Source of the DNA: a bacterium 1XD42-54
Lineage (GTDB): Bacteria; Bacillota; Clostridia; Lachnospirales; Lachnospiraceae
Direction: 5' to 3'
Assembly (NCBI GenBank): GCA_003612585.1
Contig: RAZH01000007.1
Span: 62,001 to 126,000, forward strand
Length of the DNA: 64,000 nt
The first letter of the stretch is position 1. Every line of letters begins with the position of its first letter. The notes beneath the pieces are model-generated. The model was given only the letters and a program-made list of their open reading frames with translations. It was not told the origin of the DNA and made no database searches. Positions 806 through 23,504 of the stretch are shown in pieces. Made by a program: the position numbers and the translations under genes.

Positions 806-3391
806 CTATCGGTACGCTCTGATCACCGCCTTTAACAGCTCGATATCAAGAGGCTTTGCCACATGGGCGTTCATCCCCGCATCCAGCGCCGCCTTTTCAT
901 CTTCTGCAAAAGCATTTGCCGTCATCGCAATAATCGGTATCTCTTTTGCACGGCTGCAATCCAGCGCCCGGATTGCCTTTGTGGCCTCATAACCGTTCAT
1001 TACCGGCATCTGCACATCCATCAGGATTGCATCAAACTCAGCTGGATCAGCATTTTGGAAACGTTCCACTGCCCTCTGTCCATTTTCCACAATTTCACAG
1101 CTGGCGCCTTCCATATCCAGAAGCTCTGTCAGAATTTCCGCATTGATCTCGTTATCCTCCGCCGCAAGAAAATGCAGCCCTTCCAGACTGTTGTCCTGTA
1201 CACTGTATTCTTTTTCCGCATCTCCCATCTGCAGCTCCTGAATTTTGTCCTTCAGTGCAGAGACAAAAAACGGTTTGGTCAAAATACCTGTATTCTTGAT
1301 CTGAAGAACGGATTCTACGCCGTTGGCATCAAAATCGGTCAGAAAAATCAGTGGCACACGATCAGGTAGTGTCTCCCGTACAGCCTTCGCCGCGGCTTCC
1401 CCTACTTTTCTGGCACCCTCATCTCTTTCCGCCCCCTGCGGACACCAATCCATGAGAATCACATGATAATTCTTTTCTGCTCTCATCCCATCCCGTATCA
1501 CCTGTATGGCTTCTTCTTCGTCATCTGCCGTATCCACCAGAATTTCAGCTTCTTCCATCAGTAGCCGGATATTCTTGCAAGCCTGCTCATCCCGATTCAC
1601 AACCAGAATCCGGCTAATTCCGTTTTCCTTCCAGAAGCGCTTGTCAGCCTGGTCTTCCGGGATACGGAATTCCAGTTCAACCCGAAACAGACTGCCCTTA
1701 TTTACTTCACTGAAAACCTCGATTGTGCCGCCCATAAGCTCGACAATATTCTTCGTGATTGCCATGCCAAGCCCCGTACCTTGCACCTTGTTGGTTGTAC
1801 TGTTTTCCGCCCTTGTAAATGCATCAAAAATGGTAGTCAGGTATTCCGGCGTCATTCCATAGCCATCATCCTGCACCTCAATCCGGATATGCTCATACTG
1901 ACCCGACCGTTGTTTCAATCCGATGATACGGAACCAGATGTTTCCGCCATCCGGCGTATATTTCACCGCATTAGAAAGAAGATTGATCAGAACCTGATTG
2001 ACCCGCATCTCGTCTCCGATCAGATATTCATGCTTGATATCCCGGACCTCGACGTAAAAATTCTGATGCTTTGCTTTCGCCATTGGCTGAATAATCGCAT
2101 CCACCGACGATACCAGATCATTCAGGGTAAATCTCTCATAAGCAAGCACAACCTTCCCGCTTTCAATTTTAGATACATCGAGAACATCATTTATCAGACT
2201 GAGCAAATGCTGTCCGGAGGCCATGATCTTTTTCGTATATTCCCGCACTTTGACCGGATTCTCCGCATCCATGGAAAGAAGCTTTGTAAAACCAAGAACC
2301 GCATTCATCGGCGTTCGAATGTCGTGCGACATATTCGAGAGAAATGTTGTCTTGGAATGATTCGCAATCTGAGCGGCCTGCAACGCCTCCGCAAGCTGTT
2401 TGTTATGAATTTCGCGCTCCGCTTCCCGTTCCGACCTGATCTTATTTTGCTGACTCTGATTCCAGTAATACAAAACGCAGCACACAAAAAATGCCACCAG
2501 CATCACAGCGACAACAATATAGATATTCTGGTTGACCGTTCTGCCCTCCTGCTGAATTGCCTCAATCGGTACATACCCAACCAGAAAAATCGTCCCTCCA
2601 TTCACTGCCCACATATAATTCAGCGCCTGCACGCCTTGAATATTATGATAAAACAAAAGATCCCTGTTGTTTTCCAGACAATCGGCAACCTCTTTTTGAA
2701 GCTTCTCATCTTCAATGCTGTTCGCCCGGTAAAAATCTTCCAGATTCAAATGCCCCGCACTGCGTTTTCCCATGCCTTTTGGTTTCAGCACAAAACGCTG
2801 TGTCTCTGCATCCATAATGTAAAGCATAGCCCGCTGATTATAAAATCCGTCCGGTAATGAACGGTCCAGGAAATCATAGACGTACTCAATATAAAGCGTG
2901 GCGATCTCCTGACCGTCTTTTTCAACAGGACATTTCATGGAATAAGCCCATGCGCCCATATAATTGACGTAGGATTCTGAAATCGGAAGACCATTCACTT
3001 CTCCCCCTTGGGTAAAGTCCAGAGCTTCTCCTGAAAAGTTTTCCCCTGTATTGGAAACTCCTTGCGTCTGCCCCGACTGGATCAGAGATACTTTTGCTAT
3101 CATCTGGTTCTTCCCGTAGGAACGAATATATTCTTCAGGATCTTCTGTCGATGCAACTTCCCTTGCAATCATGGTCTGAAATTCCGCTTCATTTCTCAGA
3201 ACCGCCTCGATTGTGCTTTTAATCAGATTCAGACTTTCGCTCAGATTTTGAATTGCGGACGCAGACATTTCCCGGGATATCTTCTGCGACACGGAAAAAA
3301 CAACAGCTCCCAAAATACTAAAAACCAATAGAATCGGAATGAACAAAGAAATCCCTCTGTTTTTCCTGCTCCGGCTCTGTTTCTCCTTCAT
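806..3391 (-). CDS. Hybrid sensor histidine kinase with two receiver domains
   Basis: Membrane-bound sensor of about 861 residues. The order is: first membrane helix (about 15-37), extracellular sensor of about 250 residues (Cache-like by layout only), second helix (about 290-313), HisKA dimerisation helix with phospho-acceptor motif SHDIRTPMNA (about 355), HATPase_c with DDGYGM and GTGLGMAITKNIVELMGG, then two receivers. The first receiver has the acceptor Asp in ILMDW and Lys in LTKPFF. The second has ILMDVQMPVMNG, MTANAF and AKPLD. No output domain or Hpt domain is present, so it should pass phosphate to a separate partner not seen here. I chose ATG 3391, 9 bases after a GGGAG site, over an in-frame TTG two codons upstream. 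Confidence 0.9.
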   Translation of the reverse strand: MKEKQSRSRKNRGISLFIPILLVFSILGAVVFSVSQKISREMSASAIQNLSESLNLIKSTIEAVLRNEAEFQTMIAREVASTEDPEEYIRSYGKNQMIAKVSLIQSGQTQGVSNTGENFSGEALDFTQGGEVNGLPISESYVNYMGAWAYSMKCPVEKDGQEIATLYIEYVYDFLDRSLPDGFYNQRAMLYIMDAETQRFVLKPKGMGKRSAGHLNLEDFYRANSIEDEKLQKEVADCLENNRDLLFYHNIQGVQALNYMWAVNGGTIFLVGYVPIEAIQQEGRTVNQNIYIVVAVMLVAFFVCCVLYYWNQSQQNKIRSEREAEREIHNKQLAEALQAAQIANHSKTTFLSNMSHDIRTPMNAVLGFTKLLSMDAENPVKVREYTKKIMASGQHLLSLINDVLDVSKIESGKVVLAYERFTLNDLVSSVDAIIQPMAKAKHQNFYVEVRDIKHEYLIGDEMRVNQVLINLLSNAVKYTPDGGNIWFRIIGLKQRSGQYEHIRIEVQDDGYGMTPEYLTTIFDAFTRAENSTTNKVQGTGLGMAITKNIVELMGGTIEVFSEVNKGSLFRVELEFRIPEDQADKRFWKENGISRILVVNRDEQACKNIRLLMEEAEILVDTADDEEEAIQVIRDGMRAEKNYHVILMDWCPQGAERDEGARKVGEAAAKAVRETLPDRVPLIFLTDFDANGVESVLQIKNTGILTKPFFVSALKDKIQELQMGDAEKEYSVQDNSLEGLHFLAAEDNEINAEILTELLDMEGASCEIVENGQRAVERFQNADPAEFDAILMDVQMPVMNGYEATKAIRALDCSRAKEIPIIAMTANAFAEDEKAALDAGMNAHVAKPLDIELLKAVIRAYR

Positions 3392-6561: not shown

Positions 6562-6572
6562 CTCATTTTCTG

Positions 6573-7052
6573 TTAATACAGCTTGGCACCAGCCGGAATA
6601 TGATGATCAACCATCAGAAGATGAAGTTTTTCTTCTCCCTCTTCCTCGTGGATGGCGCTGAGCAGCATTCCGCAGGATTCAATTCCCATCATGGCCCTTG
6701 GCGGCAGGTTAGTAATCGCAATCAGTGTCTTTCCTACCAGATCTTCAGGCTCATAGAAAGCGTGAATACCGCTTAAGATTGTGCGGTCTTTGTCTGTTCC
6801 ATCGTCCAGTGTAAACTGGAGAAGCTTTTTGCTCTTAGGTACTGCCACACATGCTTTCACTTTTACAGCTCTGAAATCAGACTTGCTAAATGTATCGAAA
6901 TCCACTTCATCTTTGAACAACGGTTCAATCTCTACTTTAGAGAAATCAATGACTTCCTCTACTGGTTCAGCAACTGTTTCTGCTGCCTTCGTCTCTGACT
7001 TTGCCGCTTTTTTCGCAGCCGCGTCTGTTCCAAGCGATTTCATCGTCGGGAA
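6573..7052 (-). pseudogene. lysS: Displaced C-terminal tRNA-binding domain of LysRS (second copy)
   Basis: This encodes about 156 residues that align end to end with the last 157 residues of the intact lysS at 24013-25947. Shared blocks include [60 protein letters not shown] and the C-terminus IPAGAKLY. Similarity begins abruptly at TTCCCGACGATGAAATC, which matches the junction in lysS, and nothing upstream encodes a catalytic domain. No ribosome-binding site precedes the ATG at 7043, so it is probably untranslated. Most likely this is the original host tail, cut off when the element entered lysS. If the crossover was at the other end of the repeat, it would instead be the element-borne copy. 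Confidence 0.85.
7039..7052. repeat. Proposed attachment-site core, integrase side
   Basis: TTCATCGTCGGGAA matches TTCATTGTCGGGAA at 24467-24480 in 13 of 14 positions. Homology between the two lysS tails ends exactly here on the outer side. It is therefore the likeliest strand-exchange site, although a perfect 30-base identity near the 3' end of the repeat (starting at 6606 and 24046) is an alternative. Confidence 0.5.
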
Positions 7053-7222: not shown

Positions 7223-8458
7223 TTAAAATACATCCATTGTTGCAGCCAAATGTTCAAATGTTTCCTGTTTTTTCTCCTCTGTCGCTTCTGCATAGATATC
7301 CATAGTGGTCTGAATATCCTTATGCCCCATGATCGACTGGATTATTTTCAGGTTTGTTTCTCTTTCACAAAGCCTTGTGCAAAATGTGTGTCTCAAGCTG
7401 TGCGCTGAAAAATCCGGCAACAGCACCGGCTCTCGATGCTCTTTTTTTGCCTCTACTTCTTCTGTTGCATTATAAGCAGATGAGATTCTCTTGATTGCAC
7501 GATTGACTGACTGGGCATTCATTATATTTCCATAACGGTTACAGAAAACAAAGCCTGTCATCCCATCAATCTCTGCATCTGTCCAGCCATTTTCTTTCTG
7601 CTCTTCCCAGATCATTTCAAAAGCATCTTTCACTGTATCCAACATGGGAATCGTACGCATTCCGGCTTCAGTTTTCGGCGTTGAAATGTGATTTTCCGAT
7701 GCCCGGTCTTCTCCTACTGGATAATACGTCAGATTATGATTGATGCTGATAATTCGCTTCTCATAATTGATGTCTTCCCATCGAAGCCCTAAAACTTCGC
7801 CGATTCGGCACCCGGTTCCAAGAAAAATCGTAAAAATCGGCCACCAGTGAAAATAAATCGGATGCGTAGCAATATATTCCATGAATGCTCTCTGCTGTGG
7901 AATAGTCAGTGCATGTCTCACACCGGTTTTCATGCCTAAGTTTTTCTTTAATTCTGCCATGACTCCATCCGTAGGATTTTTTCTGATAATGTCATCCCTT
8001 ACAGCCAGTTGAAAAGTCGGATGCAATAACGTGTGAATGGTTTCCAACGTGTTGATTTTCAGTTCCTGCTTCTCAATCAGGTGATTATAGAACTGCACCA
8101 CATCAGAATACTTAATCTCTGCTATATTCCGCTTTCCAAATGTATCCCGGATAAATCGGTCATACATATAAAGATAATTGCTCTTGGTCGTTGGTTTCAG
8201 ATTGTTTTTGAGACTCATGTAACGGTCAAATACAAAATTTATTGTAGCCTTTCCGGCAACATAAATATCCAGACCGTCCATCTGATCTTTCATGAGCTGT
8301 GCTTCTTTTTCCCGAAGCGTTACAAGGTCTTGTGCATAAACATATTTACGTCTTCCGAGAGGATCCGTATAAGTATATACATATCTCCCATCTGAACGTC
8401 TCTGTGATTCACCTTTCCGCAGGACTCTGCCCCGCAGATCTTTTCTTGTCTGTGCCAT
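7223..8458 (-). CDS. int: Tyrosine-family site-specific integrase (Tn916-like)
   Basis: 411-residue integrase that would catalyse insertion and excision of the element. An N-terminal arm-binding domain (RRSDGRYVYTYTDPLGRRKYVYA) is followed by a SAM-like core-binding domain (about 70-165). The catalytic domain has the full set of active residues: Arg218 in GTGCRIGEVLGLRW, Lys262, His353-x-x-Arg356 in HSLRHTFCTR, His379 in IMGHKD and Tyr389 in MDIYAEA. It lies at the end of the element next to the stranded lysS tail, reading toward it. The start has AGGAGG seven bases upstream, inside a hairpin (8466-8485) that could limit translation. Confidence 0.95.
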   Translation of the reverse strand: MAQTRKDLRGRVLRKGESQRRSDGRYVYTYTDPLGRRKYVYAQDLVTLREKEAQLMKDQMDGLDIYVAGKATINFVFDRYMSLKNNLKPTTKSNYLYMYDRFIRDTFGKRNIAEIKYSDVVQFYNHLIEKQELKINTLETIHTLLHPTFQLAVRDDIIRKNPTDGVMAELKKNLGMKTGVRHALTIPQQRAFMEYIATHPIYFHWWPIFTIFLGTGCRIGEVLGLRWEDINYEKRIISINHNLTYYPVGEDRASENHISTPKTEAGMRTIPMLDTVKDAFEMIWEEQKENGWTDAEIDGMTGFVFCNRYGNIMNAQSVNRAIKRISSAYNATEEVEAKKEHREPVLLPDFSAHSLRHTFCTRLCERETNLKIIQSIMGHKDIQTTMDIYAEATEEKKQETFEHLAATMDVF

Positions 8459-9854: not shown

Positions 9855-11729
9855 TCATTCTTTTAATCGAATACTGTTTTCCTGCTTTTCATTTATTTGA
9901 TACTCCAACTCATTCTTCATCCGACTTCTTACATCACGCATGGTTCTTCCAGAGATTCCCTGCTCTTTTGCTTTTTCATCTAGTTTCCTGATTGAAATTT
10001 CTTTTTTATCAGCAAGCAGTTCCTTGATCAACTTTGCCCCTCTCTCCAGCTTTGTTTCTGTTGCTTTTCCTTCTTTCCCATCTAACAATTCATCAGCGGA
10101 AATCTCATAGGCTCCCACCCATCGGAAACCTTCTTCGTCTCCCAGTTTAAACGCCATTGTCTCCCCCGGTGGCGCTAGCGAACTTTTTTCATGAATCAAT
10201 ACCCTCGTGGTTGGATCTTTTCTTACTTTCCCAATGAAAATCAAGCTTCGCACTGCTGCCATGATATCAATAGAACCAAGTCCTCGATAAGTGCTCTGTG
10301 TTCCGGAGGACTTATTCAGATGTCCGATCAATACAATGGCACAACCGGTCTTCTCTGCAATCATTCCCAGTTTTCGAAACACCGGGCGTACTTCATTTGC
10401 ACGGTTCATATCCACATCTGCTCCAATAAACGCCTGTACCGGATCAATAATTACAAGCCTCACTTGATTCTGTCTGACTGCTTTTTCAATTCGATCATCG
10501 GATAACGTCAACACTTCTTCCGAATCATCAATCACCATAACCCGACTTAGATCAGCTCCTGCTTCTACCAGTCTTGGCTTGATCGTATCACCCATACCAT
10601 CCTCCGCTGTCTGATAGATTACATTGAATGGTTCGATATCTTCCATATTCGGAAACAATTTTCTGTTGGTACAGGCTGCCGTCAGCATCATTGCAAAATA
10701 AGTTTTTCCCTCTCCCGGATTGCCCTGAATAATTGTCAGTTTTCCAAATGGAATATAGGGGAACCACAACCAATCCACATTGGTCTGTTCAATGTCTTCA
10801 TAACACAACATCGGCACCAGCTCTTCTGTTTCTGGTACTTTGATTGTGATTGTTTCTGCAATTGCTTTCTTTCTGTCGGCGTTTTTATCACAGAGAATTT
10901 CGTTCCAGTCTTTTCGTGATGGTTTCAGACGAATTACACTGTACCCTTCCAGAATTTCTTCTGCCAGCTTCTCACAAGCCTCATTCCCTGCCTGGTCATT
11001 ATCCAGGCACAGGAAAACAGAAGTAATCTGAGGGCGTTCAGAAAGAAAAGTCATCAGTGCCACACTGGAGACTCCACCCAGACTCAGATAGCTACGTTTC
11101 TTCCAATCTTTTGGAAATAACTGGATAAATGAAAGCAAATCAATGGCTGCTTCAAATACAAACAACTGATTATCCGTTCCTCTGTAACTGAATCCATAAG
11201 ATTTATCAGAACCTGCTACATCTCCACGATATTTTATTTCACCAGTTCCCCGGCAGTGTGCATATCTTGGAATACCATCTGCATCTCTGCCGACAAATAT
11301 AACATTATGATGCTTCTTTTCTTCGTAAATATCACCTCTGTCAATCCAATCTTCCACCAGTGTTTTCTCAATCTCTCTTTTTTCTGTCAGATACTTCATG
11401 ATTTTTTCATTATCCTCATTTTTCTCCGGTAATCGGAAGTCTTTAGACGGGGCGGGGCAGGACTTCTGCCTGCCTTCGCCTTCTTCCCCAATCAGAATTT
11501 TCACTGCTTCTGGGAATGTTGCATAATAAAATTCCATCACAAAGTCTACCGGATAACCACCCTTACTCTGACTATGCCGATACCATCGATTTCCGGATAT
11601 CGTTACACTGTCATGCTTTTTCCAACGGTATTCCCTACCACTTTTCACCAACTGTTCCCCTTGTGCGTTCAGAAAAGACACAAGATCGGTCTGGTTTGCT
11701 CTTGCAATCTGTTCTTCTGTATACTGCAT
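9855..11729 (-). CDS. Primase-helicase fusion of the mobile element (Toprim plus RecA-like ATPase)
   Basis: About 624 residues. The N-terminal part has a DUF3991-like module (FYYATFPEAVKILIGEE). It is followed by a Toprim domain with Glu193 in FVFEAAID and the DxD pair in LCLDNDQAGNEA (about 243-251). The C-terminal half is a RecA/DnaB-like ATPase with Walker A GNPGEGKTY (about 336) and Walker B-like LVIIDPVQAFIG, then a short winged-helix tail. Such proteins act in replication of mobilised elements, unwinding DNA and priming. I chose ATG 11729, spaced 8 bases from AGGAAAGGA. It lies 38 bp downstream of the relaxase gene, probably in one operon. Confidence 0.8.
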   Translation of the reverse strand: MQYTEEQIARANQTDLVSFLNAQGEQLVKSGREYRWKKHDSVTISGNRWYRHSQSKGGYPVDFVMEFYYATFPEAVKILIGEEGEGRQKSCPAPSKDFRLPEKNEDNEKIMKYLTEKREIEKTLVEDWIDRGDIYEEKKHHNVIFVGRDADGIPRYAHCRGTGEIKYRGDVAGSDKSYGFSYRGTDNQLFVFEAAIDLLSFIQLFPKDWKKRSYLSLGGVSSVALMTFLSERPQITSVFLCLDNDQAGNEACEKLAEEILEGYSVIRLKPSRKDWNEILCDKNADRKKAIAETITIKVPETEELVPMLCYEDIEQTNVDWLWFPYIPFGKLTIIQGNPGEGKTYFAMMLTAACTNRKLFPNMEDIEPFNVIYQTAEDGMGDTIKPRLVEAGADLSRVMVIDDSEEVLTLSDDRIEKAVRQNQVRLVIIDPVQAFIGADVDMNRANEVRPVFRKLGMIAEKTGCAIVLIGHLNKSSGTQSTYRGLGSIDIMAAVRSLIFIGKVRKDPTTRVLIHEKSSLAPPGETMAFKLGDEEGFRWVGAYEISADELLDGKEGKATETKLERGAKLIKELLADKKEISIRKLDEKAKEQGISGRTMRDVRSRMKNELEYQINEKQENSIRLKE

Positions 11730-11767: not shown

Positions 11768-13495
11768 CTATAAATTCATATCATAGTTCCGTTTTTTCCT
11801 CACTGTCTGTTGTTTTGCATCACGTTCTTCACACTCTTTCTTCTTTTCAGCCAGTTGTTTCCGAATAGAAGTCTTCTTTTCTGGTTTCCGCTCCGTCTCA
11901 TTCACCGACTGTTGCTCTGCTTTACTGTTTTCTTCGAAAATATCTTCTGTCTGGGCTGCGTGAAATGCCGGGAACTTCACCTGCTTCTCCCTTTTTTCTT
12001 CTGAACGCCCGGAGGTATCTGTTTCTGCCATTTCCCGGTCACATCTGGCAATGTCTGCACAACTCTGTACCTTTTTTACAAATGCAAGTTCGTCCTGATA
12101 AGGCTGATTATCTGCTTTCAGCTCTTCGATCACAGACCGGAGTTCTTCTTTCTCGCGTTTCCATCTGGCTGTTGGCACCTTTCCATTTTTATCCAAGTGC
12201 TGTTTCAGTTCCCGTTCACATTTGCGATAATAATTGATTTCTTTCTTATGCTGCTGATAGTATTTCTCTCGTTTTTTCGGAAAAAAGAAATGGTTGTACT
12301 CGTCTATCAATGGCTGGTTTGCCTTTATTACTTCTGCCATCTTTTGCAGATTTTCCAATTTCTTTAACTGCTCTCGCTTTTCGGAAATTTCTTTTTTGCT
12401 GACTGATACAACACCATTCAGTTCATCAATCCTTTCCTGCAGATCCTCCATTGTCTCTATCTTATGAGTCTGGAGGTAATTGATGGATTTTGCAAACTCC
12501 TGTAAGTTGGAGAGATTCTTCCCTCTCCGTTTCATCTCCGCATAGAAATTTGGAAGCGGTGGTCTGCCTTGCGTTTTCTTATCATAATAATCTTGCAAGC
12601 TTTCCAGAAGTGTCGGATTCTGCCTGCGATCCAGTTCGGCTTTCATTTCCTCATACGCTGTCTTCATCCACTGAATAGATTCTTTCAGAGAAATAAACAT
12701 CTGGTTGAACTGCCGGATAGCTCGGTTCAGTTCCCCAATCACTGTTTTAATTCCCTTTTTCTCCATTGCTCGCACTTCATACCCTTCATGGATCGTCGGA
12801 AGCAGATCAATTCCCTGCTCTTTGTAAGAGCGGTGATCAATTCTTGCTGCCATGTGACATTCCCGGAATTTTTCGTTCACCTTCTCTGTCCACGCTCTTC
12901 TCCATTCCTTTAAAAGCTCCGGATCATTCCATCCGGTAGTAGAAACAGCATTGAATATATCCTTTCCTTTGGCATCTTTAATCCGATTTCCGTATTCATC
13001 CAAAACATATTCCCGTTTCTGCTTGTTTCCCCAGCTTCCTTCTTCTGTAAAAGGACGGATTGGAGCAAGTACATGAAAATGTGGATTGTCCGGTTCATCT
13101 TCGTTCTTTGATTTTCCCTCATGAACTGCCAGATCTACAATCATGCCACGAGCTACGAACTGCTCCCAGCAAAACTCTCTCGCCAATTCTATATTTTCAT
13201 CCAATGTCAGTTCATTTTGTAAAGCAATATCAAAAGAATAAGCTAACTGTGCCCGTTTACTTTTCTCTATCTGCTCTACCTCATTCCAAAGTGTTTCCCG
13301 GTCAGACAAACGTTCCGGCACATATTCCGGTGTCAGGATTTCTGTGAAAACCACTCCCGACTTTTTTGTATAATCATGCGTCTGTCCATAGTAATCGTTA
13401 TAAAGCTTTTGCCCCGAAATATAAGCTGCGGAATTAACCACTGTCTGACCTTTTCCTCTGGAAACTTGCTTTACTGAAAAATGATACAGTGCCAT
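11768..13495 (-). CDS. MobA/MobL-family conjugative relaxase
   Basis: 575-residue relaxase that would nick at an origin of transfer and stay bound to the transferred strand. The N-terminal 230 residues show the MobA_MobL signature: MALYHFSVKQVSRGKGQ, SAAYISGQKL, the HUH-type metal ligands in NPHFHVLAPIRPF (about 140) and ARIDHRSYKEQGID...PTIHEG. The rest is long and charged with coiled-coil character. The ATG overlaps the DUF3847 stop (TAATG), so translation is coupled. With no type IV secretion genes in the element, it must borrow a mating apparatus in trans. Confidence 0.92.
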   Translation of the reverse strand: MALYHFSVKQVSRGKGQTVVNSAAYISGQKLYNDYYGQTHDYTKKSGVVFTEILTPEYVPERLSDRETLWNEVEQIEKSKRAQLAYSFDIALQNELTLDENIELAREFCWEQFVARGMIVDLAVHEGKSKNEDEPDNPHFHVLAPIRPFTEEGSWGNKQKREYVLDEYGNRIKDAKGKDIFNAVSTTGWNDPELLKEWRRAWTEKVNEKFRECHMAARIDHRSYKEQGIDLLPTIHEGYEVRAMEKKGIKTVIGELNRAIRQFNQMFISLKESIQWMKTAYEEMKAELDRRQNPTLLESLQDYYDKKTQGRPPLPNFYAEMKRRGKNLSNLQEFAKSINYLQTHKIETMEDLQERIDELNGVVSVSKKEISEKREQLKKLENLQKMAEVIKANQPLIDEYNHFFFPKKREKYYQQHKKEINYYRKCERELKQHLDKNGKVPTARWKREKEELRSVIEELKADNQPYQDELAFVKKVQSCADIARCDREMAETDTSGRSEEKREKQVKFPAFHAAQTEDIFEENSKAEQQSVNETERKPEKKTSIRKQLAEKKKECEERDAKQQTVRKKRNYDMNL

Positions 13496-13887
13496 TAGCC
13501 GTCATCTCCTCTTTCTGCTTTTTCAACTGCTTCTGCAATTTGCTGTTGTTCTTTGTGTAAAGCTGCCATGTAACCCTGTCGTACAATACTCTTGTTGTAA
13601 CTGCTGTTCTTCAACTGATCCATAACATCCTGAACTTCTTCCTGCTCCAAATCTCTGGATAATGGAAATGCTTTTTCAAACTCTGCACCTTTAACAATCA
13701 ATCTATGGGAACGTTCCTTTCGCTCCACCAACTTCTTTCTCTGCTCCAGAAGATTTTTATTGTGGATCGCATGTTCCAGTTCCTTTTTACTTTTTTCCAT
13801 GTTGGCTTTCAGTTCTTCCAATGACATGGATTCATATTTGGGATTTTTCGCTCTGCTCAATTTCTTTTCCTCCTTATTTTTATGCAA
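13495..13887 (-). CDS. DUF3847 mobilization accessory protein
   Basis: 130-residue, highly charged, mostly coiled-coil protein (LEELKANMEKSKKELEHAIHNKNLLEQRKK). The mid-part HRLIVKGAEFEKAF is diagnostic of DUF3847 proteins, nearly always encoded directly upstream of MobA/MobL relaxases. By position it is probably a relaxosome accessory factor. AGGAGGAAAAG precedes the ATG. It heads the mob operon, and a hairpin terminator for the AIPR gene lies directly upstream. Confidence 0.75.
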   Translation of the reverse strand: MHKNKEEKKLSRAKNPKYESMSLEELKANMEKSKKELEHAIHNKNLLEQRKKLVERKERSHRLIVKGAEFEKAFPLSRDLEQEEVQDVMDQLKNSSYNKSIVRQGYMAALHKEQQQIAEAVEKAERGDDG

Positions 13888-13924
13888 ATAAAAAGAATCA
13901 GCACTGTCACCAATACCGATTCTT
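13885..13924 (-). terminator. Terminator of the AIPR gene
   Basis: AAGAATC pairs with GATTCTT, with an inner TATTG/CAGTG stem and a GTGA loop, followed by TTTTTATTT on the minus strand. It lies 74-105 bases after the AIPR stop and abuts the DUF3847 ribosome-binding site. It marks one border of the defence cargo. Confidence 0.65.
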
Positions 13925-13997: not shown

Positions 13998-15947
13998 TTA
14001 TATAGTAAATCTCTTTACAAAATCTGTATACATCTCCTGATATGTAAGATCTCCAGCCATTTCTTCAGATAATGTATCAAAAAAATCTGTTTGACTTTGT
14101 GCTTTCTTCAACCAGTTAGTTGCACTTCCACTACCAGAAGCGGCAAGTAATTTAGACATTATTTTTACAGTAGCCTGTAAAAATTTATTTGCAAAATAAT
14201 CAATTATTTCATCTTTGTATGATGAATTTCGATTATCTCTATAAAAACTAAAATAATCAAATGTATTTTTCTCGCCGATAGTCCCGTAATTATCTTTAAG
14301 CGTAAAATATAAAGCAATACAATAAAACATACATGTATTATTCACCTCTTTATATCTCTGATTTAATTGAATCATCTTTTGCTGCTGTTCAATGTTTCCC
14401 CAACTGGCGGATATATGCTCATTGCATTTTGCGATTCTCTCATCGTAACTCTTTTTCATTTTATTTCTTGCTTGAATATATAAATATTTAACAAACAATG
14501 CTTCATCAATTTCTTCCTTACTCTTTTGAAATAAAACACCTTTCTTATCATCTTCTTCAGAAAGATAAAATATTTGATCATAATAAGCATTAACTAAATA
14601 TTCTGTATCTGAAGCATCTTTATTAAAAAGTGTCTTTTTCTTATCTTTTGCTGTAAATGGTGATTGTAAAAAAGCAGCAAACGCTAACTGTGCAAGTTCC
14701 TCATTGGTGATTCTTTGATGTTTTTCGAATCTTGGTTGTGGCGGAACAGTCTGACCTCTTCTTATCTCTACAAATATATTCGGAGCTTCACCTGTCATAC
14801 ATATTCTCTGCAATTCTTTTTGCTCAGTATTATTTGCAACCATATCTCTTGAAGACATTGGATTCTGTAAATTATTATAAATAGAAATATTACCACTAAG
14901 CTTTTCATTATTAACCTGCATTATTCTCACAAGAACATATACTTTTTTTAACTGCTCTATTTCATCCGGTTCATTGTTAATTAATGCATTTCGCAAATAT
15001 GCTCCTAATGTGTTTGTAGTTTGTGCACCATTAATAATTGAAAAATTAGTAATCTCAATTAAATCAACATCTCCATTACGGCCCTTACGATGTGCATCTA
15101 ATTCTTCGCAAAGAATAGTTATTCCATTATTATAATTCCAAAATCGTTCTGGTTCATTTTTTATGGTTTTCATCATTGCTTCGTACGTTTTAGATTTTTT
15201 CTGGTCTAAAGAGTCTCTTAGATTCTGACCAAATAAAATATTTCTTCCCATTGAAGAACTCACATATTTATTGCATAAAACAGCCAAATCATATCCTCTT
15301 ATATTGCAAAGCATCGCATTATCTGACGAATTCTCATAAAGAATATAATTATTAAACATATCCGAAGTGAACTCTGCATAAGGAACCTTTAAAATATGGT
15401 CCTCTCGCCCCAGACTCTCTAGTACAACTTCCATTTCATTTATTGTTACTATTTTTTCATTTGCCTTAAAATTTTTTCCATAATTCAATATTCCTGTATG
15501 ATAAACATAATATGTACAATTATTTTTGAACGAAGAATTAAAATTTGTTTCTGAAATTATATCTCGCAAATTTGACTGGACACTATTAGGATTTTTCAAA
15601 TACCTCCTAATAGCATCATGCATTTCCAAAAAGCATACTCTTATCTCTTCTTCTGTTAACTCTGTGTATTTAGACTGAATAATATCATAATAGTATTCAT
15701 CTCCATCCTCAGTCTCAATAAATAAATCAATACCGCTGTCTGGAGGAGCAACAATAATTTTAGATATTTTATCAACATTTTCTGGTGAAATTTTACAATC
15801 TAATGTTTCACCATACATTATTTTTAAAATAGCTAATGTAAACGCATCCTCTGGTGTGTTATTTCTTACTATTGCTCTATGATTTGGCAATCCAGCAAAA
15901 TCCTTATAAAAATTATCGACAAGTATTCTAACTTTATTTTCAGACAT
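13998..15947 (-). CDS. AIPR-family (abortive infection phage resistance) protein
   Basis: 649 codons including the stop. The central part INGAQTTNTLGAYL, VRIMQVNNEKLSGNISIYNNLQNP and SRDMVANNTEQKELQ is the hallmark of AIPR proteins. The N-terminal 100 residues look like a restriction-endonuclease fold: SGIDLFIE supplies Asp74, and YDIIQSKY supplies Gln91-x-Lys93, a PD-(D/Q)xK arrangement. It is likely a nuclease effector triggered on phage infection; this is inference from the family. ATG 15947 follows AGGTGAAAG and is preferred over an extension to 15989. It is AT-rich, 238 bp downstream of the AAA ATPase gene, separated by a hairpin array and a possible promoter of its own (TATAAT, 15973-15978). 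Confidence 0.8.
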   Translation of the reverse strand: MSENKVRILVDNFYKDFAGLPNHRAIVRNNTPEDAFTLAILKIMYGETLDCKISPENVDKISKIIVAPPDSGIDLFIETEDGDEYYYDIIQSKYTELTEEEIRVCFLEMHDAIRRYLKNPNSVQSNLRDIISETNFNSSFKNNCTYYVYHTGILNYGKNFKANEKIVTINEMEVVLESLGREDHILKVPYAEFTSDMFNNYILYENSSDNAMLCNIRGYDLAVLCNKYVSSSMGRNILFGQNLRDSLDQKKSKTYEAMMKTIKNEPERFWNYNNGITILCEELDAHRKGRNGDVDLIEITNFSIINGAQTTNTLGAYLRNALINNEPDEIEQLKKVYVLVRIMQVNNEKLSGNISIYNNLQNPMSSRDMVANNTEQKELQRICMTGEAPNIFVEIRRGQTVPPQPRFEKHQRITNEELAQLAFAAFLQSPFTAKDKKKTLFNKDASDTEYLVNAYYDQIFYLSEEDDKKGVLFQKSKEEIDEALFVKYLYIQARNKMKKSYDERIAKCNEHISASWGNIEQQQKMIQLNQRYKEVNNTCMFYCIALYFTLKDNYGTIGEKNTFDYFSFYRDNRNSSYKDEIIDYFANKFLQATVKIMSKLLAASGSGSATNWLKKAQSQTDFFDTLSEEMAGDLTYQEMYTDFVKRFTI

Positions 15948-15972
15948 TCTTTCACCTATTTTCTTTAGTTTT

Positions 15973-15978
15973 ATTATA
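15973..15978 (-). promoter_or_regulatory. Possible -10 element of an AIPR promoter
   Basis: A perfect TATAAT on the minus strand, 25 bases upstream of the AIPR start. No good -35 hexamer lies at the right distance (AAAACA-like at best). Taken alone this is weak, but it would make AIPR transcription independent of the upstream genes. Confidence 0.35.
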
Positions 15979-16038
15979 TATACTACCATGTAATATGTTT
16001 TAGCACCATTTTTTTCACCTAGATATTCACTTTCACCA

Positions 16039-16183
16039 CAAAGGAAATTCCTTTGCCCGAAATCTATGATTTCGCTATATCTTTGGATTGAAATTTTTCA
16101 AATCCAGGAATAGCACCGCAGGTCACACGATACAGGCAGATGCAATCACCTGTATAGAAGTGCGCTCTTAGCTTCGCTAAGAG
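16039..16183 (-). ncRNA. Array of five consecutive hairpins, possible structured RNA
   Basis: Five inverted repeats fill this gap. They are CTCTTAGC/GCTAAGAG (16165-16183), ATACAGG/CCTGTAT (16130-16155), a TGGATT-GAAA/TTTC-AATCCA stem (16084-16106), CGAAATC/GATTTCG (16058-16074) and CAAAGGAA/TTCCTTTG (16039-16055). There is no open reading frame and no T-run. The first hairpin begins 2 bases after the AAA ATPase stop codon. Candidates are a regulatory leader for the AIPR gene, a non-coding partner of the system, or a transcript-processing region. The RNA class is not recognised. Confidence 0.5.
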
Positions 16184-16185
16184 AA

Positions 16186-17304
16186 TTATATTTCCGTTTC
16201 ACCACATATTTTTTTGAGTACTACAAGTGAAAAAGTATCTTTAATCAAATGTTTTATTTCTCTTGCATTTGATTGAGTAACTGCACCTTTCTTTATTTTG
16301 TCGAACAGCTCTCTGTCTTCGATACCATAATCTTTCTTTAACCTTTCTATTTCCCTCTCCGCAATTTTTTCTTTTGCCATATCTGGTAAATCAGCAAATT
16401 TAATAATTGAGTCAAAACGGTTATATATAGGCAATCCCAGATGTTCTTTTATCTCATCAATTGTTTTGTAATTTGAAGTACACACAATAATTGCCTTATT
16501 TACTACCACTTTGTAATTATGATCTTCATAAATCCCCTCATCAAATAATTGATAAAATGCACTATGAAATACAGATAAAGCTTTATCAAACTCATCAAAC
16601 AACAATACATTTGTTTCTCTAGCCAAAAGATCTTGTGCAAAGCTTTTCTCGTTATATCTTCCACCAAAAATGTAATTGGCTGACTCATTATTCTGATACA
16701 TGGAGAACTGTTTTCTTAATAATTTTCCACCCATCAATTCTGCCATATACTGTGCGGATTCCGTCTTTCCAAGCCCTGAATCTCCATATAACAATATTAC
16801 AACAGGCTTACTCTGCTTACCATCTACCAAAGGATATATTGCCTGAAGCAATTTCTTTTTTGCTCTTTCCTGACCAATTACTCTTTCACTATATTGGCTG
16901 TTAAATGTTTGTATCATTTCCTTTGAAACTTCCAAATATGGCTGTTGCGTTTCATGAATAATACTTTTATCAAATGTTCGATATATCTGCTCTCGAATAT
17001 TTTTCGGTGGATTTTGAATGTACATATTTGTTATGGACATTTGGAAAATAAAATTTATAAAGTTTATAATAACATGTTCTTGAACACTGCAATACTCGTC
17101 TGCATGAATAACAAAATCTTGAACTCTTAGTTTCTTCTTTTTCTTAGGCTTTGGTTCTGGCTGCCCTGGAATGTTAACAAACACATCCATTTTTTTATTA
17201 CCATCATCAAGTTTCGCTGCCATTTCACTAAGATTTCTTGCACTTTTCGGAACAATCTTTTCAAAAGCAGAATCAGATCCTACAAAAATTTCAATCTTCT
17301 TCAC
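16186..17304 (-). CDS. Hsp100/Clp-type AAA+ ATPase of the defence cargo
   Basis: About 372 residues. The ATPase core has Walker A YGDSGLGKTESAQYMAE (about 174), Walker B NVLLFDEFDKA (about 232), sensor 1 IIVCTSN and an arginine-finger box IYNRFDSIIKFADL closely like the NR(I/V/F)D box of Hsp100 unfoldases. The N-terminal 120 residues match nothing I recognise, and no ClpP-binding loop is visible. GTG 17304 is chosen because AGGTG lies 6 bases upstream; a GTG at 17313 is possible. It overlaps the upstream gene by 14 to 23 bases, so the two are co-translated. It probably remodels a partner protein within the cargo system, not as a general chaperone. Confidence 0.75.
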   Translation of the reverse strand: MKKIEIFVGSDSAFEKIVPKSARNLSEMAAKLDDGNKKMDVFVNIPGQPEPKPKKKKKLRVQDFVIHADEYCSVQEHVIINFINFIFQMSITNMYIQNPPKNIREQIYRTFDKSIIHETQQPYLEVSKEMIQTFNSQYSERVIGQERAKKKLLQAIYPLVDGKQSKPVVILLYGDSGLGKTESAQYMAELMGGKLLRKQFSMYQNNESANYIFGGRYNEKSFAQDLLARETNVLLFDEFDKALSVFHSAFYQLFDEGIYEDHNYKVVVNKAIIVCTSNYKTIDEIKEHLGLPIYNRFDSIIKFADLPDMAKEKIAEREIERLKKDYGIEDRELFDKIKKGAVTQSNAREIKHLIKDTFSLVVLKKICGETEI

Positions 17305-18067
17305 GTACCACACCTGCCAATACTATATCATAAACATCTAATTCTTTTTCTCTTTCATCAGCAGACTTTTCTCCCTCAACAATTTCTTCTGCTGTAGTCT
17401 TTTCTTCTACTGGTTGAAACTCAAACTCTTTATCAATTGATAAATGATTTTCTCCACAAGTTCCAACCTTTATTCCAAAATATGTCAATTTCATTTTACT
17501 TAAATCGACAAGGTTATAATTATTTTTAAATGCTTTAAGATTAAATCTTAATAAGTTTTTCCGCTCTTTCTCTGTCTTTAACAACATATCATAATAACCT
17601 CGTTCACCTAATATTGCCTCATTTAATTTTTCCATATCTATTGGCATTTCTTCTTTAGGCACAATTGTCAAATACGAACTAATCATTTTATACAATGTTA
17701 CAGAATTTTCCGGTGCATAAACACCACTATTCTCAAATTTTTTTACATGTTCATCTTCCGATGCTGCCTGTATATAATCTGTAAGCAACGTATTTTTTAT
17801 TGTTTTATCAAAAGCGCTAGTCAGCTCAGCGGAAGCACTGGCATCAACCTTTCCCTGAAATGTTGCTTTAATATAATTCAAAATATTAAAGCCACTTTTG
17901 GCCTGAGCTTCAATTTCAGCAACTATTTTAGCTATTTTTTCTTTATTTTCCTGCGTTGACCAATCAAGCCGTCCTCCATTGGTAACATCAACATAATCCT
18001 GTGCAGCAGCTTCATCAAAATATACTATTTTTAGAAACTCTGTTTTCTCAATGTTATTATTTTTCAA
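17291..18067 (-). CDS. DUF6414-like protein of the defence cargo
   Basis: 258 residues starting at TTG with AGGAGCAG upstream. The opening KTEFLKIVYFDEAAAQDYVDVTNGGRL resembles DUF6414 proteins, which begin with a Y(F/L)D...DY strand-helix. Next comes an Ala/Ser-rich middle segment (IKATFQGKVDASASAELTSAF) and an acidic C-terminal tail. There are no transmembrane segments or catalytic motifs. The gene overlaps the AAA gene and follows the methyltransferase by 15 bp, so all three are one transcription unit. The DUF6414 name rests on pattern resemblance; function unknown. Confidence 0.55.
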   Translation of the reverse strand: MKNNNIEKTEFLKIVYFDEAAAQDYVDVTNGGRLDWSTQENKEKIAKIVAEIEAQAKSGFNILNYIKATFQGKVDASASAELTSAFDKTIKNTLLTDYIQAASEDEHVKKFENSGVYAPENSVTLYKMISSYLTIVPKEEMPIDMEKLNEAILGERGYYDMLLKTEKERKNLLRFNLKAFKNNYNLVDLSKMKLTYFGIKVGTCGENHLSIDKEFEFQPVEEKTTAEEIVEGEKSADEREKELDVYDIVLAGVVREED

Positions 18068-18082
18068 CTTTTCTGCTCCTTA

Positions 18083-20881
18083 CTATTTCTGTTCCTCGCA
18101 CAATTTCTGATATCTTTGCATCAGTTCTGCAACACAGGCAGCTTCGCTTTTATAGGCTTCACTGCCTTTTGTGAATCCGTATGCCTGCATGACTGCCATA
18201 TCATTCTGGCGATGTGCTTTTCGCAGTTCCGGCGGCATGGTCAGTTCATCATAAAGATCTGCAAGGCTGCTATCCGGATATAATGCTCTGGCATCAAGGA
18301 TTGCCTGTGCAGTCTGTTCGATTTTTTGTCGTTGCTGAGCGGTCGGCTCTGGCCATGGAAATGTATTATATACCACATTACTTGCATAACTATAATCGCT
18401 CTTTAATCTGCCACAAACTGTTCGCATCCACGCCATATGAACATTCGATGTCAATACACCAAAATGATACAGAGAAATGTCCGGTATCAAAAACAATTTA
18501 CTTCCAGCAATAACATCAGCATCGATTACTTCCATCGGAATATATCTTCGATTTTGTGAAGATACTTTCGGTAATGCTAACGCCGGATTTATTCTGTCTT
18601 CGCTATAATATCGGAGTCGAACTGGAAATGTCGGCTTGTCAGCATAATGATTAGTATCAGGACTTGGACAACTTAATCGAAATTCACGAACGTTCTTTAC
18701 ACGTTCCATAATTTTAGGATATTTTTTTAACTCCGATGGCAATATATCTTTCAGCCAAAGGCAATATCTCGATTTTCTCGCAATAAAATCTTTTCCCATC
18801 ATATAAGGATGTATATATTTTTCCGCCTGCGGCTCATTTTGTAGAAATATATTTTTTTCATCTTCCGTCATAACATAGTTTCCATCGTCTTTCATCTCAC
18901 AGCCAATATACATTTTAGGTACATCAGAAATTGGCGTTTTTCTACTTACAATGAAAACATTATCCGCATCAACAAGATATGGATTTATATTTTTTGCTAA
19001 TGTCATTCTTCCATCAGAGAATATTTTCTTTACATTTCCACCCACCTGGCTAAATCCGACTATTACACAATGTACATGTGCCTTTAAACTAGCTTCGCTA
19101 TCCCACTGAAAAGTTCTATGTGCAAAATCAATTTTCACACCTGCTTTAAAAAGCGGTTCCCATAAATTTGCAACTTGTTCACCCTGACATATTGAATTGG
19201 TAGAAACATAGGCACAATGTATCAACGTATTATTAATAAAATCTGCGGCTTTCTTATACCAGCAAGAAACGTAGTCCAAGGTTCCATAGTTTTTCCAATC
19301 TGATAAAACTAATTTTGCATCCTTTTTCTGCTCAGTGTTCATATTTTTAGTTCCTACAAATGGTGGGTTACCCATGATATAAGATAACTGCATTTTAGGA
19401 ACAATACTTTCCCAGTCCAGTTTTAGTGCATTACCTTCTACAATAAACGCATTGGTCGTCAATGGCAAAAAATCCAGATTCATATGAACGATGTCTTCTG
19501 TTTCTTTCATCATCTGTGATTCAGCAATCCATAAAGCAGTCTTGGCAACTGTAACAGCAAAATCATTAATCTCAATTCCATAAAACTGATCAATAGAAAC
19601 GTGGATTGGTGAGGATTCATCAAAGCCAAAAGTAATCTGTCCTCTCTGCAATTCTTTTATGACTTCGTTCTCCAATCGCCGTATACTGATATATGTTTCC
19701 GTAAGGAAATTTCCACTTCCCGATGCCGGATCAAGCCACCGGAGATTTGCCAGCTTCGTCTGGAAGTCTCTCAGCTTTTTATCTTTTGTTCTCTGCACGG
19801 TTATCTGCTGAATTTCTTTCAGCTCATTTTTCAGATCGTCCAGAAACAGTGGATCAATGACCTTGTGAATATTCTCAATGCTGGTGTAATGCATACCGCC
19901 GGAGCGTCTTGTCTCTGGATTCAACGTACTCTCGAACACAGCGCCAAATATGGTCGGACTGATTTCTGACCAGTCAAAATCTGCTGATGCTTTTTCTAAT
20001 AAAAGATTTCTGATTTCATCCGTAAAAGGCGGAATCTCAATATCTTCATTTGCAAAAAGTCCACCATTTACATACGGAAAAACTGCAAGCTGTGGGTTAT
20101 CATCTTTCAAATAAGGATCTCTATCCTCCGGCTTTGTATCAAGGATCTGGAAAAGTTCGATCATTGCTTTTCTCATTTTTCTTGCATCAAATTCTTCCAG
20201 ATAATCATGGAACATACCATGCTGTCCGAAAATGCCGGCATCCTCTGCATACAGGCAGAATACCATTCTGACACAAAGGATATTCAGACTTTTCATTGCA
20301 CGCTCTGTTGTTGGATCGGCATATTGTTTTGCCAGTGCATCATACAGCAACCCTACAATTTCACCTGCGGCAATGGAAACTTCCATTTCTCTCTGAAGAT
20401 TTGTGTTTCCCTCGTCCACAAGGAACTGTAACCGATAATATTCTTTTTCCAGATTCTCCAACTGGATAATCTCCGGATCACCGCCCGGCTTTTCCATGTC
20501 ATAAATATAAAATGACTGAAAATTGCTAGTTACAATCCATCTTGGTCTTTTTGAATATGGCAGTTCAGAAGAATATCTTTTTGCCTGTTCAAAGGGTGTC
20601 AGCATAGAGCCATCAGACTGCCGGATAGCAGCCGTCAGGCTCTTGTTGATACTTTTCTGTTCAATCATTACATGAGTTTTCTCAATATACCCGTCAATAA
20701 AACTGGTGTGATCAAGATGTACCTGATCCTCAAAGGAAATAAACTGTGATATTTCAGTTACACCAAATACCATTGTCAGAAGCTCCACCCAGAAAATCTG
20801 GCTGTCTCCCTTTTCATATCCACGGTCTTTCCAGTTTTTTGCAAATGCTTTCGCTGCTGCTCTTTGTTGTGCATCTGTCAT
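18083..20881 (-). CDS. MmeI-like single-chain restriction-modification enzyme (type IIL)
   Basis: 932-residue fusion of nuclease, DNA methyltransferase and specificity domains. The N-terminal PD-(D/E)xK site is visible as Asp63 in FIDGYIE and Glu74-x-Lys76 in VMIEQKS, the same spacing style as MmeI. A helical linker leads to the gamma-class adenine methyltransferase with motif I LDPASGSGNF (about 383-392) and catalytic motif IV NPPF (505-508). The C-terminal third should hold target recognition. Both activities appear intact. AGGAGGGTG precedes the ATG. The coding sequence for roughly residues 490-840 is visibly more AT-rich than the first third, consistent with exchange of recognition domains. 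It is 15 bp downstream of a small HTH gene that may control it. Confidence 0.9.
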   Translation of the reverse strand: MTDAQQRAAAKAFAKNWKDRGYEKGDSQIFWVELLTMVFGVTEISQFISFEDQVHLDHTSFIDGYIEKTHVMIEQKSINKSLTAAIRQSDGSMLTPFEQAKRYSSELPYSKRPRWIVTSNFQSFYIYDMEKPGGDPEIIQLENLEKEYYRLQFLVDEGNTNLQREMEVSIAAGEIVGLLYDALAKQYADPTTERAMKSLNILCVRMVFCLYAEDAGIFGQHGMFHDYLEEFDARKMRKAMIELFQILDTKPEDRDPYLKDDNPQLAVFPYVNGGLFANEDIEIPPFTDEIRNLLLEKASADFDWSEISPTIFGAVFESTLNPETRRSGGMHYTSIENIHKVIDPLFLDDLKNELKEIQQITVQRTKDKKLRDFQTKLANLRWLDPASGSGNFLTETYISIRRLENEVIKELQRGQITFGFDESSPIHVSIDQFYGIEINDFAVTVAKTALWIAESQMMKETEDIVHMNLDFLPLTTNAFIVEGNALKLDWESIVPKMQLSYIMGNPPFVGTKNMNTEQKKDAKLVLSDWKNYGTLDYVSCWYKKAADFINNTLIHCAYVSTNSICQGEQVANLWEPLFKAGVKIDFAHRTFQWDSEASLKAHVHCVIVGFSQVGGNVKKIFSDGRMTLAKNINPYLVDADNVFIVSRKTPISDVPKMYIGCEMKDDGNYVMTEDEKNIFLQNEPQAEKYIHPYMMGKDFIARKSRYCLWLKDILPSELKKYPKIMERVKNVREFRLSCPSPDTNHYADKPTFPVRLRYYSEDRINPALALPKVSSQNRRYIPMEVIDADVIAGSKLFLIPDISLYHFGVLTSNVHMAWMRTVCGRLKSDYSYASNVVYNTFPWPEPTAQQRQKIEQTAQAILDARALYPDSSLADLYDELTMPPELRKAHRQNDMAVMQAYGFTKGSEAYKSEAACVAELMQRYQKLCEEQK

Positions 20882-20896
20882 TGTGGCACCCTCCTG

Positions 20897-21103
20897 TTAC
20901 TTTTCATCTGTAAATTCCATCATCTCATCAACGGTGCAGTCCAGTTTCTTGCAGATTTTCTCAATCGTTTCCATTGAGACATACTGATTTTTTCCCATTC
21001 GGGCAAGAATATTACCACTAATCCCGGTAAGGTACTGCATCTCTATCCGCTTCATATTTTTATCTATGAGCATTTTCCATAATCTGTTATAACTTACGCC
21101 CAT
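20897..21103 (-). CDS. Cro/C1-type HTH regulator (68 aa)
   Basis: A short helix-turn-helix protein: LWKMLIDKNMKRIEMQYLTGISGNILARMGK, then VSMETIEKICKKLDCTVDEMMEF, the standard Xre/Cro pattern. ATG 21103 is preferred since GGAGGCG falls between it and the longer start at 21124. It lies 15 bp before the restriction-modification gene in the same direction, like controller (C) proteins of restriction systems. It could delay nuclease expression after entry into a new host or regulate the whole cargo operon. Confidence 0.82.
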   Translation of the reverse strand: MGVSYNRLWKMLIDKNMKRIEMQYLTGISGNILARMGKNQYVSMETIEKICKKLDCTVDEMMEFTDEK

Positions 21104-21192
21104 AAGCGCCTCCATATTTTTCATATAAACATATTTTGATTATATCACGATTTCGTTAGGTTAAATACCTGTAATTTTTGATATCTTCTACC

Positions 21193-21241
21193 AAATGGTT
21201 GGAGAGGCTGTTCTAACACAAGACAACCTCTCCAACCATTT
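21193..21241. terminator. 15-bp perfect hairpin between ssb and the HTH gene
   Basis: AAATGGTTGGAGAGG and CCTCTCCAACCATTT are perfect complements around a 19-base loop. On the minus strand the run after the stem is only TTTGG, so it is a moderate terminator for ssb, but the strength of the stem argues for a real transcript end or boundary of the cargo. Confidence 0.6.
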
Positions 21242-21249
21242 ATTTCGGA

Positions 21250-23276: not shown

Positions 23277-23504
23277 TCAAATCTTCCTCTGTTCTCGCAG
23301 ATACGCTTCAAATATACTTCTACGAATCAATACTTTTTTCCCAATCTTATAGACTGCCCCGGCTTCATGTGCCATACGGACAACGGGTTTGATTCCCAGC
23401 CTGTAATATTCACACGCCATATTGTAGGTCACATAGGCATGGCTCATAAATTCCAGATCTTCATCATCAATCTCATCTGAAAACATCCATACATTACCGC
23501 TCAT
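23277..23504 (-). CDS. DUF6462-like small DNA-binding protein, copy A
   Basis: 75 residues with the core VTYNMACEYYRLGIKPVVRMAHEAGAVYKIGKKVLIRRSIFEAYL, which aligns with the excisionase-like protein at 8759-8968 and with the next gene. The layout is a winged helix of the Xis type. It overlaps its upstream neighbour by 11 bases. It may regulate element transcription or excision; which of the three paralogues is the true excisionase is not clear. Confidence 0.65.
   Translation of the reverse strand: MSGNVWMFSDEIDDEDLEFMSHAYVTYNMACEYYRLGIKPVVRMAHEAGAVYKIGKKVLIRRSIFEAYLREQRKI

Follow-up and report, generated by a model that had tools for sequence, protein, structure and literature searches.

Type IIG restriction, Dodola and AIPR genes as probable cargo around a putative transfer origin of an integrative mobilizable element

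Five adjoining genes in a Lachnospiraceae genome raise the question of whether neighbouring genes with defence-type domains form one immune system or share a mobile element. They lie in a 64,000-nucleotide stretch of bacterium 1XD42-54 (contig RAZH01000007.1; hereafter the window), and an initial annotation read them as one undescribed defence locus. A Pfam scan bears out the five genes at that place, all on the minus strand and with the expected domains: HTH_26, five MmeI domains, DUF6414, AAA_2 and AIPR (Table 1). Every part of the locus is of a known kind, and the block is a cargo set of a mobile element, not a single new immune system. We consider it highly probable that the locus forms the cargo region of an integrative mobilizable element, where slot 1 holds a type IIG restriction enzyme and the Dodola gene pair, an origin of transfer (oriT) follows, and slot 2 holds the AIPR gene. 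A role in phage defence is well supported by homology; this part of the initial annotation stands for the restriction and DUF6414-AAA genes and falls for a joint system of five.

Table 1. Features of the locus and its element, with positions in the window
Feature	Position	Strand	Basis or remark
Intergenic stretch with 19-nt-arm hairpin	21125..21249	-	element backbone
HTH_26 regulator, small	20897..21124	-	Pfam HTH_26; element backbone
MmeI-like type IIG restriction-modification enzyme, 932 aa	18083..20881	-	Pfam, PADLOC and motifs
dolA (DUF6414), Dodola	17291..18067	-	PF19952 114.9 bits; PADLOC DolA 248.7 bits
dolB (ClpB-like AAA+ ATPase), Dodola	16186..17313	-	PADLOC DolB 415.2 bits
Hairpin array, putative oriT of MobQ-type relaxase	16040..16180	-	
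AIPR-family protein, 649 aa	13998..15947	-	PF10592 130.8 bits (Pfam cut-off 25); AbiU 80.5 bits (partial)
DUF3847 gene, mobilization module backbone	13495..13860	-	domain scan; relatives
MobA/MobL-type relaxase	11768..13495	-	NCBIfam MobQ 242 bits (cut-off 200)
Tn916-type tyrosine integrase of the element	7223..8458	-	
Tn916-Xis-like protein	23277-23504		
Duplicated lysS 3' end (putative attachment region)	6565..6960		partner 24005-24400

Gene spacing divides the block. Gaps of 15 nt separate the MmeI-like gene from the HTH gene and from dolA, and dolB, which starts with GTG, overlaps dolA by 23 nt. The AIPR gene lies across the hairpin array, 238 nt past dolB if it starts at 15947 and 196 nt if it starts at 15989 (663 aa), so the tight packing claimed for all five genes holds for MmeI-DolA-DolB and breaks at AIPR. 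By eye, a ribosome-binding-like sequence precedes the start at 15947, and most aligned relatives begin about there. Two hairpins border the block as the initial annotation had described: one at 21193–21241 with 19-nt arms that are 95% complementary and contain a perfect 15-bp part read by eye, and a terminator-like one at 13893–13924. The AT-richness noted for three of the genes also holds, with GC fractions of 0.318 (dolA), 0.322 (dolB) and 0.297 (AIPR) against 0.392 for MmeI, 0.403 for ssb and 0.420 for mob.

The HTH gene had been counted as a member of the system. A 94% identical copy stands in L047 (loci and genomes fetched for comparison carry L and G numbers), which is without MmeI, Dodola and AIPR, and this rules the gene out as a part of the defence system. 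Its nearest NCBIfam model, VanU, scores 60 bits, under the cut-off of 150. The intergenic stretch before it, with a promoter-like, TATAAT-containing segment recognized by eye, is 85% identical in L047 and 82% identical in L099, where the hairpin is partly altered; in L048 only the half adjoining the HTH gene is kept. Because this stretch is conserved, we read the HTH gene, together with its likely promoter, as element backbone, and the type IIG and Dodola genes may ride on the transcript of that promoter.

The first gene of slot 1 encodes an MmeI-type IIG enzyme. The protein has all five MmeI Pfam domains, matches PADLOC model PDLC03598 at 1177 bits and keeps its motifs intact (D-x10-ExK at 63, DPASGSGNF at 384 and NPPF at 505), with nuclease motif, methylase motifs and recognition domain all in one chain. 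Such an enzyme would methylate its host and cut unmethylated incoming DNA. The window gene differs from its class by an AT-richer stretch, at about residues 401–800, that takes in most of the recognition domain and some of the methylase. GC is 0.33–0.37 over these residues and 0.38–0.45 on either side, and this dip hints at a mosaic gene whose recognition region was exchanged.

The two genes that follow match a named system, Dodola, at 249 bits for DolA and 415 bits for DolB, which removes the claim that they are undescribed; a match of this kind, set beforehand as an outcome against the proposal, was found for two of the five genes. The PADLOC matches cover residues 2–257 of 258 in DolA and 2–372 of 375 in DolB, and the DUF6414 protein adjoins a ClpB-like protein whose single AAA domain has Walker A, Walker B, sensor-1 and NRFD motifs. 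The pair shares with Dodola both genes, their order, their adjacency and the models over nearly full length; it differs in lying 15 nt behind a type IIG gene, within a slot of a mobilizable element. DolB finds Clp-type AAA chains as its nearest solved structures, and the DolA profile returned one structure match, at E 0.24, which we took as chance. Searches for DolB yielded no match at E ≤ 1e-30 in phage records and no relative in viral contigs probed with close-relative patterns, and our literature search found no paper naming DUF6414. In the excerpted text of PMC11514479, protection by dolA-dolB against phage SPP1 is cited and the paper's own assays show only minimal impact; Clp-like structure matches are ascribed there to DolA and a ClpB domain to DolB, in separate sentences, and in the window the AAA domain lies in DolB. 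An excerpt of PMC12322248 gives the Dodola mechanism as unknown and describes protection against all streptococcal phages tested. In the window, an AAA+ ring of DolB together with DolA would supply a second anti-phage layer.

Do the restriction enzyme and Dodola cooperate? Type IIG, dolA and dolB form a tight unit and are probably one operon. It is nonetheless unlikely, in our estimate, that the three genes act together as one composite system, for instance with the AAA+ pair gated by the restriction-modification complex, remodelling it or removing it from modified or broken DNA. Composite action would fit the gaps of 2–15 nt in the window's lineage and the 11-nt overlap in L084, where MmeI is 62% identical yet DolA only 33% and DolB only 36%. 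It would also fit a 19-row MmeI tree on which the Dodola label must change three times, with well supported branches forcing at least two of these changes; L. brevis, with a divergent enzyme that is only nearby, is counted under the label. On these label changes, type IIG enzymes and Dodola seem to have met repeatedly, with one gain plus losses as the alternative.

The neighbourhood census bears on composite action from both sides. DolA adjoins DolB in 40 of 40 loci, a count that is partly selection since the loci were mostly found by DolB; six of 46 DolB ORFs are without a recognized DolA. A same-strand gene lies within 100 nt upstream of 20 of the 40 DolA ORFs, and a restriction or BREX gene stands directly upstream, on the same strand and at ≤100 nt, in 10 of the 40 loci. 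Grouping DolB at 85% identity gives 32 clusters, 28 with a recognized DolA; the ten loci fall in seven of the 32, and two of these seven are the window's lineage. The upstream gene encodes a type IIG enzyme in the window, L099, L100, L101 and L084, BrxL in L085, L106 and L107 (the last placed by the cluster and layout of L106) and HsdS in L115; in L119 it gives a weak type II REase match (32 bits), following a strong one. A type II system near one Dodola copy is also mentioned in the PMC11514479 excerpt.

Several observations weigh against composite action. According to the PMC12322248 excerpt, a clone carrying only Dodola protected S. thermophilus from the streptococcal phages tested, in hosts that may have restriction genes of their own. 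DolA is downstream in three of 30 MmeI loci; the other 27, several of which are fragments or at a contig end, have no DolA in the flank. The upstream partner varies even within one DolB cluster, with HsdS at 23 nt in L115, and with a 117-aa ORF at 245 nt in L117, where an AAA/SMC-like gene lies farther out. Defence-island clustering can explain adjacency without cooperation. A broader form of the idea makes DolA-DolB a mobile AAA+ partner of restriction-type systems, one that acts on restriction-modification complexes or on the ends they make; it is prompted by the pair's apparent joining of type IIG (at least twice), BREX, type I and type II genes. We hold it to be doubtful, and were it true, the operon of type IIG, DolA and DolB would count as a composite form of Dodola. 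We prefer to read the pair as a second layer that shares slot 1 with the restriction enzyme. With the pair closely following a type IIG enzyme in two lineages, this arrangement offers a test case for the Dodola mechanism. Among titles in the Dodola, DUF6414, AIPR and MobQ-oriT literature, mostly without subscription journals, we found none on a type IIG-Dodola operon.

Dodola genes in the wider sample have further settings. Of 299 family genomes, 14 have DolB at 80 bits or more, the gene being broken or a fragment in three (G159, G110 and G279), and other matches in these genomes, under 58 bits, look like Clp background. DUF6414 occurs in 10 of 398 phylum genomes, the window's own included; of 10 DUF6414 stretches from the Pfam search, only L173 and L177 passed the DolA profile. 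DolA-DolB lies directly after BrxL at 3152–7180 of L085 and 4483–11107 of L106, with PglZ before BrxL in L106. On Enterococcus faecium plasmids a TIR gene stands 12 nt upstream of a DUF6414-AAA pair (L152, 4539–7125; L155, 4581–6954), possibly as another effector of a Dodola-like unit. In L081, L111–L113 and L118, DolA-DolB lies inside a set of genes that we take to resemble a conjugative element, some with an adjoining ardA-like antirestriction gene.

The hairpin array between dolB and the AIPR gene is most likely a putative oriT of the MobQ-type relaxase. The initial annotation had made it a part of the defence locus; transfer explains it better, and relatives with neither AIPR nor Dodola also have it. 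Positions 15990–16190 fold into several hairpins with an MFE of -55.3 kcal/mol (z -3.5; 0 of 200 shuffles as good). The core hairpin reads TCTCTTAGC-GAA-GCTAAGAG, then CGCACTT, with the core AAG at 16169; the window's core letters are TAAGAGCGCACT, also written TAAGAGCGCACTT. By blastn, 16 of 299 family genomes have some match to the array and four reach E below 1e-6: the window's own, L002/L047 (84%), L003/L048 (75%) and L004/L049 (79% over 71 bases). The other 12 have short matches only, at E 1.3e-4 or weaker. One of these weak matches, L005, overlaps the oriT core. Distant blastn against plasmid and phage records gave no match at E ≤ 0.01.

The core accompanies mobilization genes. In the form AAGNGCGCACTT it lies upstream of the mob gene and on the same strand in 21 of 30 mob loci, 115–1225 nt from the start; the 21 include near copies and represent 13 distinct 92-nt sequences. 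GTGCG follows the core in all 21, and the window itself reads GTGTG. In L138, L139, L140, L149 and L150 the mob flank examined holds no core. L121–L124 have none within the 1.5-kb flank, and longer stretches show it for three of them, at 2.7 kb from mob in the window, 5.4 kb in L047 and 3.9 kb in L048; the stretch of the fourth, L151, ended at a contig end. In L099 the core is 2.7 kb from mob. Relaxing the core gives three matches across 705,627 bases of other loci, collected chiefly for their Dodola or AIPR genes; two matches fall in elements of this same kind and the third in L083.

Base pairing around the core is kept as its letters change. A perfect stem of 7–8 bp precedes the core in 14 of 17 distinct copies and is absent from the other three. 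The arms of the 14 come in six sequences, and 200 shuffles rarely gave any such stem (at most 0.005), which argues that the hairpin itself is maintained. A second stem of 5–9 bp follows the core in 13 of 17 copies, four of the 13 being no better than 0.05 against shuffles; the window copy is among the four without it, its loop exceeding the set limit, though folding shows the stem.

This organization resembles MOBQ transfer origins. PMC3832669, in the part drawn on here, prints the MOBQ consensus TAAGTGCGCCCT, also given as NWACCNNTAAGTGCGCCCTYNN, and an excerpt of PMC10333310 has a similar Gram-positive consensus; by eye, the window core agrees with 10 of the 12 letters printed in PMC3832669. 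As in the RSF1010 and pHAE1 type, a TAAGNGCGC-CT core comes after a hairpin, and both lie upstream of a MobA/L relaxase and on its strand, so that a nic-like core near the consensus lies in a MobQ mobilization region. The window array differs from this type in its exact core letters, in the second hairpin and GTGTG that follow, and in its distance of 2.7 kb from mob, which arises because the AIPR gene lies between. We propose that the relaxase would nick within the array, which would then be no defence RNA. An excerpt of PMC11541004 states that the relaxase usually lies in the part entering last.

The AIPR gene is separate from the Dodola pair. PF10592 is found in 24 of 24 aligned relatives, and the AbiU match of the window protein is partial; identity with MzaE of the MZA system was rejected, as the NCBIfam model scores 59.1 bits, below its cut-off of 1050. 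AIPR relatives turn up in 33 of 299 family genomes and 4 of 47 genus genomes, own included in each, and only one other family genome, G096, has a near-full-length match (43%). A profile search of all fetched loci (cut-offs 30 bits for AIPR and 70 for DolB; flanks 1.5 to 10 kb; some loci repeating the same place) found AIPR in 107 and DolB in 83, 23 of them with DolB alone, some of which may be Clp background. The two occur together in four loci, all in the window's own genome. Outside that genome no fetched locus has AIPR beside DolA or DolB, and on this ground we rejected AIPR as a regular Dodola partner; the conserved co-occurrence of DUF6414-like, AAA and AIPR genes that the initial annotation had set as a check was not seen in these loci.

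A nuclease activity of the AIPR protein is a lead only. Three residues, D74, Q91 and K93, are invariant in the 24 aligned proteins, within a GxD...QxK pattern at 72–93 that resembles a PD-(D/E)xK nuclease site. It stays a lead because no Pfam nuclease model matched the N-terminus of any of the 24 and an excerpt of PMC3506569 assigns AIPR proteins a HEPN domain at the N-terminus. The AIPR profile has no match among solved structures at E ≤ 1. The protein would act as an independent effector, probably abortive-type or nucleolytic.

Type III toxin-antitoxins have an RNA, and an RNA is linked to AbiF. A structured RNA of this kind, controlling or neutralizing AIPR, might be seen in an array that sits just upstream of AIPR with a z of -3.5 against shuffles, and we rejected it as highly improbable: the array accompanies mob genes rather than the candidate toxin gene, is present without AIPR in four relatives (L047, L048, L049 and L099), has no Rfam match even at E up to 5 and resembles the MOBQ oriT consensus printed in PMC3832669. 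Intergenic structure next to a defence gene tempts one to a defence reading; here the array is best explained as a transfer origin.

Comparison with relatives places the two groups of cargo in different slots. The element is, on its gene content and flanks, an integrative mobilizable element in the lysS 3' end. This end occurs twice, with 81% identity over 399 aligned columns, and the integrase-side copy, in region 6565–7043, includes a tRNA_bind fragment. The duplication likely marks the attachment regions, and integration targeting lysS is probable. As we reconstruct it, the backbone would run ssb, HTH, slot 1, oriT, slot 2, DUF3847 and MobQ relaxase, and onward through primase/helicase and toxin-antitoxin genes to the tyrosine integrase; TnpV and a ParE/RelB pair also flank the cargo. 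Such an element would gain by protecting its host.

The array keeps its backbone place as the cargo changes, within the few close-backbone arrangements seen (the window, L099, L048/L100 and L047/L151). In L047, ssb, HTH and array follow one another with slot 1 empty, and an acetyltransferase and other genes fill slot 2 before DUF3847-mob. L099, a Blautia sp. MSJ-19 locus added by a scan of genome contigs, has type IIG-DolA-DolB and then the array in the window's order; instead of AIPR its slot 2 holds an alpha/beta hydrolase gene and one with DUF3791. L048/L100 has type IIG-DolAB and a GmrSD-type gene where the window has AIPR. In L049 the array stands directly before DUF3847-mob with no cargo between; no ssb, HTH or Dodola was found there, the other side of the array running to the contig end. 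Because the oriT-like array recurs without AIPR or Dodola and the slot is filled differently in relatives, the AIPR gene reads as separate cargo between array and mob genes, in a second slot.

These arrangements mostly refute the reading of HTH, type IIG, DolA, DolB and AIPR as one two-layer system with an ATPase-gated AIPR nuclease, which we regard as very improbable. The five genes do adjoin one another on one strand, and the excerpt of PMC3506569 describes the AbiU1/AIPR family as frequently associated with restriction-modification. Against this, the oriT-like array divides AIPR from DolB, and nothing in these data supports the gating idea; HTH occurs in L047 without the other four genes, other genes replace AIPR in L099, L100 and L047, and no fetched locus of another genome pairs AIPR with Dodola.

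Slot 1 and slot 2 thus hold neighbouring defence genes as distinct cargo, and this two-slot layout round an oriT gives a starting point when mobilizable elements of the same type are searched for defence cargo. Defence-type genes fill slot 2 in two elements, since a GmrSD-type gene stands there in L048/L100 and AIPR in the window. The GmrSD-type restriction gene lies between oriT and mob at 11328–13376 of L048/L100, in Frisingicoccus caecimuris.
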